DNA of 64,000 nucleotides from Streptococcus sp. Marseille-Q6470 (GTDB lineage: Bacteria > Bacillota > Bacilli > Lactobacillales > Streptococcaceae), in NCBI RefSeq assembly GCF_946902905.1, contig NZ_OX336385.1:1174501-1238500 (forward strand). Reading direction: 5' to 3'. Position 1 is the first letter of the stretch. Each line of letters begins with the position of its first letter. Positions 8,511 through 50,957 of this stretch are shown here, in pieces. A program made the translations under genes and the position numbers. The notes under the pieces are model-generated. The model ran no database searches and was not told the DNA's origin. It saw only the letters and a list, made by a program, of their open reading frames with translations.

Positions 8511-8516
8511 TAGATC

Positions 8517-8547
8517 AAATCCCTTTGTCATGCACAAAGGGGTTTTC
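8517..8547 (+). terminator. Rho-independent terminator after GH92
   Basis: CCCTTTGT (8521-8528) pairs with ACAAAGGG (8534-8541) around a CATGC loop and is followed by GTTTTCTT. Confidence 0.85.
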
Positions 8548-8554
8548 TTATCCA

Positions 8555-8810
8555 TATAAAGTTTTCCACAAGCTGTGAATAACTTTCAACTTTTCTTTGG
8601 AAAATAGTTTCAAGTTTTTCCAAAATGTTTTCCAATCCAAGTCTATAGGATTTACAACCGAACACAGTCTGCAAATCTTGTTATACCAAGGTTTACAAAG
8701 ACTTCATTGTTTTCCATTCTATCAATTTTATCTCCACTTCTCACATCAAAACTAGAAAGAGACAGTTGTTGTTGACACCTTGAGTTATCCACACGTTGTG
8801 GATAACCTTT
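8555..8810. promoter_or_regulatory. Outlying DnaA-box cluster with two inverted pairs
   Basis: The 425 bases between GH92 and the permease hold no gene. They contain TTATCCACA at 8785-8793 and its exact inverse TGTGGATAA at 8797-8805, separated by CGT. A second pair, TTTTCCACA (8562-8570) and TGTGAATAA (8574-8582), is separated by AGC and each box has one mismatch to the consensus. Further TTTTCCA cores occur at 8616, 8628 and 8710, and inverted at 8598-8604. The same inverted, 3-base-spaced layout occurs in front of dnaA in this window. A role in DnaA titration or in regulating the permease is inference. Confidence 0.7.
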
Positions 8811-8902
8811 TCTCAACCAACAAGCCCTACTCCCTATCTGTTAGCTAGTTTTTACATTTTTTATAGTAAATTTAAAATTTTGTTAGGCGCTTTCAAAAAA
8901 CA

Positions 8903-8933
8903 TGATATACTGAAATTATCAGAAAAGGAGACA
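8903..8933 (+). promoter_or_regulatory. Permease promoter and ribosome binding site
   Basis: TATACT at 8906-8911 preceded by TGA is an extended -10. AAAAGGAG precedes the ATG at 8936. The bases TTGTTAGGCGCTTTCAA at 8880-8896 resemble a cre site with one inserted base. I treat that only as a possibility. Confidence 0.55.
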
Positions 8934-8935
8934 TT

Positions 8936-31000: not shown

Positions 31001-31812
31001 AAAGCCTCCTCGAGCTCCTCTTCGGTCAGGTAGTGCTCTGGTAATTTCAAGCCACTAGTACGTAGAGATTCTTTTAATTGGTTGACAAAGGGTTGATCTA
31101 AACCAATTTGATCTAAATCTAACCTAGAGAATAATTCTCTAGGAGTACTAGTTGATTCGATTTCTCCTTTTTTCATCACCAAAACACGGTCACTCATGGC
31201 CACCTCATCTAGGTCATGCGTAATGGAGATTACTGTCATTTGGTGATCTTGGCGAATCTTTTGGACGATCTTAATCAACTCTAGTCGTCCCTCTGGATCC
31301 AACATGCTTGTAGCCTCATCCAAAATTAAAATGTCTGGTCGCAGAGCAACAACTCCTGCAATAGCAACCCTTTGTTTTTGACCGCCTGATAAACGAGATG
31401 GTTCCTTTTTAGAAAATTCTGCCATGCCAACCAATGATAAAGCTTCAGTAACTCGAACCTCCATTTCTTCAAGTGGAATCCCTTGGTTTTCTAGTCCAAA
31501 AGCAACGTCATCTTCTACGGTTGCCCCCACGAATTGGTTATCAGGATTTTGAAATACCATACCAATCTTACGTCTTTTTTCCCAGACGTTTTCCGGAGTT
31601 AGGCAATCACCATCTATCCAAATTTCTCCAGATTCCGCTTCTAGCAAACCGTCAATCAAGCGAACAGTTGTTGATTTTCCACTACCATTATGACCAACGA
31701 TAGACAACCATTCTCCACGTTTCACGTGAAACGAAATGTTATGAACATCATAGTGTTCTTGATCTGCCTGGTATCGAAATGACAGATCCTTAATTTTAAT
31801 AATCGATTCCAT
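30985..31812 (-). CDS. ecfA1: ECF transporter ATPase EcfA1
   Basis: The 275-residue ABC ATPase has Walker [15 protein letters not shown]-loop [11 protein letters not shown], signature [13 protein letters not shown] and Walker [14 protein letters not shown]. It follows pgsA after 2 bases. A parS-like palindrome lies inside the 5' part of the gene (31718-31733), read as coding sequence across HVKRG. Confidence 0.96.
31718..31733. promoter_or_regulatory. parS-like site inside ecfA1
   Basis: CGTTTCACGTGAAACG differs from the parS palindrome TGTTTCACGTGAAACA only at the two outermost bases. It is perfectly palindromic and about 20 kb from oriC, as expected for ParB loading sites. Confidence 0.7.
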
Positions 31813-42034: not shown

Positions 42035-42050
42035 TGTTTCACGTGAAACA
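42035..42050. promoter_or_regulatory. parS centromere site (perfect)
   Basis: TGTTTCACGTGAAACA exactly matches the bacterial parS consensus bound by ParB. It is about 8 kb from parB and 9 kb from dnaA, between the ABC-F terminator and the yhgE stop codon. Confidence 0.93.
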
Positions 42051-48626: not shown

Positions 48627-48700
48627 CTATTCACATCTTATTCACAAATGAAAAAGGTGAAAAACACAATAAATTCACAAATATTCAACAATTATCCACA
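48627..48700. promoter_or_regulatory. DnaA boxes upstream of htrA (outer oriC cluster)
   Basis: The rlmH-htrA gap holds TTATTCACA (48638-48646), CTATTCACA (48627-48635) and a perfect TTATCCACA (48692-48700), all in the same orientation. DnaA boxes here, before dnaA and before dnaN form the extended streptococcal origin region. Confidence 0.7.
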
Positions 48701-48721
48701 GATTGTTGAAAACTTAAGTTT

Positions 48722-50817: not shown

Positions 50818-50957
50818 ACTTATCCACTAAATTAGTAGAGGAAAAATCAGTAAAATCAAAATTTATACCTTTTATCCACAACTTGTGGATAAATCTTTTA
50901 AACATTGTGGATTGTTTTTCACAAGTTGTGGAAAAAATGCTTGCTATATGATAAAAT
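50818..50957. promoter_or_regulatory. oriC: DnaA-box cluster and dnaA promoter
   Basis: Boxes: TTATCCACT (50820-50828), TTATCCACA (50872-50880), TGTGGATAA (50884-50892), TGTGGATTG (50906-50914), TTTTTCACA (50915-50923) and TGTGGAAAA (50927-50935). Two pairs are inverted with exactly 3 bases between (ACT, AGT). TGATAAAAT (50949-50957) is an extended -10 for dnaA. The last box lies where the -35 would be, which fits DnaA autoregulation. Confidence 0.88.

Follow-up and report, generated by a model that had tools for sequence, protein, structure and literature searches.

In Bacillus subtilis, a Firmicute without IHF, DnaA boxes are clustered outside oriC in six DnaA-box clusters (DBCs; Okumura et al. 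2012), which the title of that paper, as cited in reviews, calls 'origin-proximal'. According to reviews, the removal of all six clusters leads to early initiation, and one review considers them analogous to datA of Escherichia coli (PMC5742627); another describes them as having no significant role in initiation (PMC5295017). In the former, datA is presented as a locus outside oriC that requires IHF and lowers active DnaA, head-to-head boxes as a prominent feature of the DARS sites, and DARS2 as dependent on IHF and Fis (PMC5742627). In vivo, E. coli DnaA is reported to prefer 'double DnaA boxes', i.e. pairs of boxes 2-3 bp apart that form the bound unit and in which both boxes are needed; these pairs were modelled, and searched for, as tandem (Stringer et al. 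2024, PMC11317965). Finally, a 2026 review describes B. subtilis as devoid of datA and DARS and the regulators of the DnaA nucleotide state as unknown there (PMC13220808).

The locus presented here consists of two inverted pairs of DnaA boxes in a Streptococcus chromosome. Like the B. subtilis clusters, it groups its boxes outside oriC, but instead of six clusters it is a single module, known from its sequence, in which about 200 bp separate two inverted pairs with 3-bp spacers. In the MG1655 sequence, datA also has two inverted boxes separated by 3 bp (1407/1419 in L233, 1 mismatch in one of them), preceded at 162 bp by another box. An inverted 3-bp pair accompanied by one or more distant boxes was thus found in both loci, although this feature was picked from the sequence and is not a textbook definition. 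In contrast to the module, datA requires IHF, has different neighbours and is made up of one pair and single boxes rather than two pairs. The cores of DARS1, at the MG1655 position that we take to be its own, and DARS2, located through its published description as 'upstream of mutH', are compact and contain inverted boxes as well, but they read > 5 bp < 3 bp <, whereas the module reads > 3 bp < and has no third box at 3 bp in the genome under study. The double DnaA boxes share with the module the short distance between boxes, those of the module being inverted instead of tandem. Since the 3-bp convergent pair matches that of datA and the spacing of the DARS cores is not found, the locus probably works most like datA or a DBC.

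Two inverted box pairs in a gene-free interval

The window, i.e. the whole stretch of DNA analysed (64,000 nucleotides), corresponds to bases 1174501-1238500 of a single 1,715,395-bp contig. Its relevant features are the following:

8511-8935: gene-free interval from the GH92 alpha-mannosidase gene to the amino-acid permease gene, containing the module
8521-8541: terminator-like inverted repeat just 3' of GH92, outside the module, flagged on the minus strand by a terminator scan
8562-8582: DnaA-box inverted pair 1, TTTTCCACA-AGC-TGTGAATAA, boxes at 8562-8570 (plus strand) and 8574-8582 (minus strand), read directly
8583-8784: DNA between the pairs, its length roughly kept and its sequence poorly conserved
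8785-8805: DnaA-box inverted pair 2, perfect, TTATCCACA-CGT-TGTGGATAA, boxes at 8785-8793 (plus strand) and 8797-8805 (minus strand), read directly
8880-8912, plus strand: conserved stretch ahead of the permease, with the catabolite-site-like GCGCTTTC and with TGATATACT, interpreted by eye as the permease promoter
50872-50892 and 50915-50935: two other consensus pairs, at oriC, between the parB-like and dnaA genes

A previous, sequence-only reading of this DNA had reported a gene-free stretch with a perfect inverted pair (CGT spacer, 10-base arms) and a second inverted pair with one mismatch per box and a 3-base spacer. Both pairs are present, the perfect one extending to GTTATCCACA-CGT-TGTGGATAAC at 8784-8806 when its flanking bases are included, and neither the sequence nor the open reading frames revealed a credible gene in 8511-8935. 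The spacer is 3 bp long in both pairs, whose starts are 223 bp apart. Each box of pair 1 has 1 mismatch to TTATCCACA, but both match the broader consensus TTWTNCACA. The TTTTCCA cores pointed out by the same reading are also there, three on the plus strand (8616, 8628, 8710) and one inverted (8598); nevertheless, they are not kept in the alignment of the more distant half of the relatives that share the permease side, so they probably lie outside the element. The repeat at 8521-8541, which has a short T run on the plus side too, is kept in relatives. The stretch at 8880-8912 starts about 75 bp downstream of pair 2 and was not listed by the promoter scan. An Rfam search returned a single match, to preQ1-II, far under the cut-off (21.3 vs 47 bits, E 0.71).

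The perfect inverted N3 pair occurs in two places of the whole genome, this locus and oriC, so that the absence of any other such pair away from dnaA, initially noticed within the window, holds for the entire genome. The perfect pairs of both places are separated by 42.1 kb (from this locus to 50872), in accordance with the 42 kb first given. The consensus pair TTWTNCACA-N3-TGTGNAWAA occurs four times in the 1.72-Mb genome, twice at this locus and twice at oriC, and the reversed control pattern was found nowhere in it. The module pairs are therefore the only exact consensus pairs outside oriC in this genome, and they provide what characterizes a Bacillus-type cluster, namely several consensus boxes outside oriC (here, four TTWTNCACA boxes in two pairs). 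When 1 mismatch is allowed, two further pair sites appear in the genome, 2.2 and 6.2 kb from the oriC pairs. Given the base composition of the window, 0.0076 exact consensus pairs are expected per genome. The locus is not due to chance: the exact pairs are too rare in the genome, the control gave none and the expectation is too low for this origin to be retained. Single boxes are also in excess, since TTATCCACA with at most 1 mismatch occurs 48 times in the window and 19.2 +/- 4.4 times in shuffled sequences, an excess to which oriC contributes in part.

Two observations concern the origin region itself. Between rlmH and htrA (48692-48712), about 2.2 kb before the oriC pairs, the window contains a DnaA-pair-like TTATCCACA-GAT-TGTTGAAAA with 1 mismatch; since several congeneric genomes (e.g. 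L007, L009, L215, L217) have a perfect pair at the rlmH-htrA site, oriC may have an outlying third cluster. Moreover, parS-like sites surround the origin at 31718, 42035 and 62352 (2, 0 and 1 mismatches, respectively; 0.04 expected).

Conservation of the pairs among streptococci

A DNA search in 284 congeneric genomes gave any match in 91 of them, and 26 carry the locus with its permease side (L035-L060, the genome under study included). We refer to this context as setting A. Both pairs are at most 1 mismatch from the consensus in 25 of these 26 loci, with starts 207-226 bp apart (224 in L048). The exception is L060, which retains a single pair after a deletion; in this genome (G081), the deletion took place between the two near-identical pairs of its lineage, which suggests that the pairs can recombine with each other. 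The alignment was made with 25 of the 26 loci, without L048, whose permease start is missing, and the statistics with 24, without L048 and L060 (one pair lost). Across these 24 loci, the 36 box positions have a mean variability of 0.038 and 27 of them are invariant, as compared to 0.354 for the spacers, 0.246 between the pairs and 0.189 for the remaining intergenic DNA. By a hand count, 30 of the 33 deviating box letters fall on box positions 5 or 3, which are loosely defined in the DnaA consensus. None of 20000 random sets of four 9-base windows drawn from 8511-8855 was as low as the boxes, but this number and the corresponding one given below are only descriptive, since overlaps of the windows with the boxes or with each other were allowed and the genomes share ancestry. 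The stretch taken as the permease promoter (8855-8935), outside the range of these windows, has a variability of 0.043, about the same as the boxes.

Many Streptococcus genomes carry both pairs in the corresponding region, at distances of 197-226 bp. A strict version of the double module, defined as both consensus pairs with a gap of 181-210, is present in 44 of the 284 genomes (reversed control: 0), which were sorted by hand into 21 in setting A, 22 in setting B and one in setting C. It is absent from the other 240, so it must be dispensable at the genus level. In setting B, the module lies between an alpha-L-fucosidase gene (GH29) and arcA (G083, G151, G039), although in G059 it stands beside the 3' end of a gene that we take to be adcA-like, instead of arcA. 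Over 21 loci, a subset of the B genomes, 34 of the 36 box positions are invariant and the mean variability is 0.0026, vs 0.186 for the DNA that separates the pairs and 0.349 for the spacers; one of 20000 random window sets was as low as the boxes. The DNA between the pairs is thus more variable than the box letters, by a factor of about 6 in setting A and 70 in setting B. Four more B genomes deviate from the strict pattern, either by a spacing of 197 bp (G032, G059, G118) or by one letter (G184). Conservation of the pairs in relatives, which the sequence-only reading had proposed as a check, is thus strong.

One of the carriers, G039, is very probably S. pneumoniae. Its fucosidase shows 100% identity, over 452 residues, with the solved chain 6org, the near-twin of which, 6orf, is named SpGH29, and its GH125 protein is nearly identical to 3qpf. 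In S. pneumoniae, the GH38, GH92 and GH29 genes are reported to be SP_2143, SP_2145 and SP_2146 (PMC5215778). The G039 module, located between GH29 and arcA, has one TTTTCCACA box, the others being TTATCCACA or TTATTCACA.

In 17 of the 21 setting-B loci, a third box-like 9-mer, TTGTTCACA, precedes the first box at a distance of 3 bp (e.g. L145, 12 bp before pair 1). This gives three boxes, one of them reversed, as in the DARS cores, and the head-to-head orientation of the boxes is also reminiscent of DARS. In that case, the locus would be a reactivation site that promotes the release of ADP from DnaA and stimulates initiation. Nevertheless, the spacing of the E. coli cores is different, the third box is absent from the genome under study and DARS2 depends on IHF and Fis, so that we regard this function as distinctly unlikely.

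In setting C (G025), the module abuts polA. In G003 (L061, 1623-1846), a partial match of the DNA search that enters none of the statistics, the pairs are 203 bp apart, one exact and the other with 1 mismatch, and they are flanked by the 3' ends of GH92 and polA, which converge there; the permease is absent and no gene start adjoins them. Setting D (11 genomes) is of another kind: its pairs, separated by 720-722 bp, belong to a GH2-like coding sequence beside the fucosidase, and the second pair, which has 1 mismatch, falls on codons read as YQQVVDK. Since coding constraint could explain setting D, it was not counted as evidence of selection. In L230 (G094) and its relatives, a perfect pair and further TTATCCACA boxes lie both inside and alongside a GH2 beta-galactosidase-like gene adjacent to the fucosidase; its frame is interrupted in G094 and open over 1274 codons in G001, G029 and G031.

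The perfect pair was found in 73 of 197 genomes. Among the 49 perfect-pair sites that were typed (30 fetched and 19 picked among the matches listed, known carriers being omitted from the latter), 24 correspond to the oriC region (rlmH-htrA-parB-dnaA), 24 to this locus (2 in setting A, 11 in B, 11 in D) and one remains untyped (G011). In a set of 20 hand-chosen genomes, eight have the strict double module, one (G099) has a single exact pair of the module and 11 have none. Within these 11, other outlying pairs are present in G090, G095, G014 and G150, typed pairs at oriC in G112, G196, G137 and G129, and one untyped pair in each of G101, G166 and G046. G014 and G150 have consensus pairs other than those of the module, and four of the five outlying ones are inside open frames. 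In G090 (L180:6487-6865) and G095 (L181, around 6535), an nrdG-like gene is immediately followed, at its 3' end, by a consensus pair with further box-like 9-mers around it; the oriC pair is about 102 kb away in both genomes, and the site is possibly a separate outlying DnaA-box cluster.

The pairs could also be unrelated to DnaA and correspond to an RNA hairpin or terminator, or to a by-product of chance or coding. The terminator scan flagged 8784-8806, the RNA fold of the perfect pair reaches -12.7 kcal/mol (z -4.1) and setting D lies within a coding sequence. Yet pair 1 folds weakly (-5.4) and its arms do not compensate each other: at position 5, the right box has A5 C1 G6 T12 and the left box has C in 24 of 24 loci. 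The lack of co-variation indicates that the pairs are not an RNA hairpin, and the hairpin or terminator was rejected on this basis and on the weak fold of pair 1. As for a by-product, the module is intergenic in settings A, B and C and the chance expectation per genome is very low. Taken as a whole, this explanation is highly improbable.

The changing neighbourhoods bear on a transcriptional role, in which DnaA bound to the pairs would tune an adjoining promoter (permease, fucosidase or arcA) to the replication state. DnaA is a known transcription factor (PMC11317965, PMC4447404) and the distances are suitable in some cases: in the window, 130 bp separate the end of pair 2 from the permease start; in the five setting-B loci checked, 31-46 bp separate that of pair 1 from the likely fucosidase start; and pair 2 of G083 lies about 480 bp before arcA. 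Nevertheless, the neighbour is not constant, as it can be the permease, arcA, the 3' end of the adcA-like gene, polA together with a 464-aa protein, or the GH2 coding sequence, and no gene start adjoins the pairs of G003, which is the clearest case against promoter control. Moreover, 58 of 80 permease-homologue loci have no pair (with at most 1 mismatch) in the upstream kilobase (957 bases in L144). A DnaA-responsive transcription element is unlikely on these grounds. The permease promoter itself, offered by the sequence-only reading as the alternative to a DnaA control locus, was discarded as the main role, since most homologues lack the pairs and the module exists without the permease, persisting beside arcA, the adcA-like gene or converging gene ends. 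The other half of that interpretation, a DnaA locus, agrees with the conservation as far as the sequence goes.

Synteny and distance to oriC

In G083, G151 and G086, the genes GH38-GH125-GH92 are followed by the module and then by polA, nearer to oriC (37 kb from the module in G083), and G002 has the same order on the opposite side of dnaA. G039 departs from this pattern: mannosidase genes flank its module, yet the 112 kb examined gave no match to polA, so the placement of polA towards the origin does not extend to this genome. The simplest reading of these arrangements would be that one old element was retained while neighbouring genes came and went.

The module is 42 kb from oriC in the genome under study, 40-47 kb in G165, G117, G188, G153, G103, G086 and G099, about 60 kb in G002, 73 in G151, 80 in G083 and 98-100 in G039. 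The side of oriC was determined by dnaA or parB in G000, G083, G039, G086, G002 and G151 and from oriC-like pairs alone in G165, G117, G188, G153, G103 and G099. A distance of 40-100 kb in 12 of the 13 genomes measured is consistent with the origin-proximal location of Bacillus-type clusters. The exception is G025, in which the module is beside polA and the (confirmed) oriC lies 1.23 Mb along the contig, or 0.41 Mb if it is circular. In view of G025, origin proximity may be plain synteny.

The relationship with the origin could also be architectural: the DnaA pairs of the module and of oriC would serve to fold or tether the domain of the origin, and not to meter DnaA. The geometry of the pairs is identical in both places and the parS-like site at 42035 is perfect; in S. 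pneumoniae Hi-C data, HU depletion is reported to produce a left-arm hairpin close to the origin, about 100 kb in size, which the authors link to a parS site (PMC12014288). The distance to oriC, however, varies from 40 to 100 kb and more, and we consider such a function very unlikely.

A candidate DnaA control locus

The reading that we favor is that of a chromosomal DnaA-binding control locus, usually near the origin, which rather probably acts like the B. subtilis clusters or E. coli datA. The sites are rare, conserved letter by letter whatever their neighbours, and close to the origin in all but one of the genomes measured. They make up a real and strongly conserved candidate DnaA control locus, for which the mechanism outlined below is plausible; DnaA binding, contact between the pairs and an effect on initiation are what we infer from the sequence. 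Each inverted pair, with its two convergent 9-mers and 3-bp spacer, would most likely bind two DnaA molecules, since E. coli DnaA prefers close box pairs and the other exact pairs are found only at oriC, and the two pairs, about 200 bp apart, would function as one module. Being tens of kb from oriC, this module would be replicated soon after initiation, and its dosage would double while re-initiation must be prevented. It would most likely lower the DnaA available to oriC, which it would either titrate or keep inactive in an assembly, and the lowered availability would help to set the timing of initiation, a role that has been proposed for the B. subtilis clusters and demonstrated for E. coli datA.

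Streptococci, to our knowledge, have no IHF. A more specific scenario, which we put forward as a tentative possibility, is that mitis-group streptococci, including the pneumococcus, have a dedicated DnaA switch outside oriC: two cooperating palindromes, each with two DnaA molecules and at a set distance, perhaps looped with HU replacing IHF, would inactivate or release DnaA to time replication.

A full-text literature search revealed no streptococcal locus of this type in the titles and abstract openings among the matches listed, subscription papers being mostly outside its coverage. The main text of the pneumococcal CcrZ paper does not contain 'DnaA box', 'DARS' or 'titrat', and the accessible part of an S. 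pyogenes paper that mentions DnaA boxes discusses oriC alone.

These results touch on the metering of DnaA in Gram-positive bacteria that have no SeqA, Hda and IHF. The site, about 250 bp long and nearly letter-perfect across dozens of streptococcal species, provides a defined target on which initiator titration can be tested, in a coccus that is amenable to genetics and in which DnaA, YabA and CcrZ have already been studied. If the dedicated switch were real, it would be a Gram-positive counterpart of datA with an architecture of its own, selected in one region while the surrounding genes were replaced.
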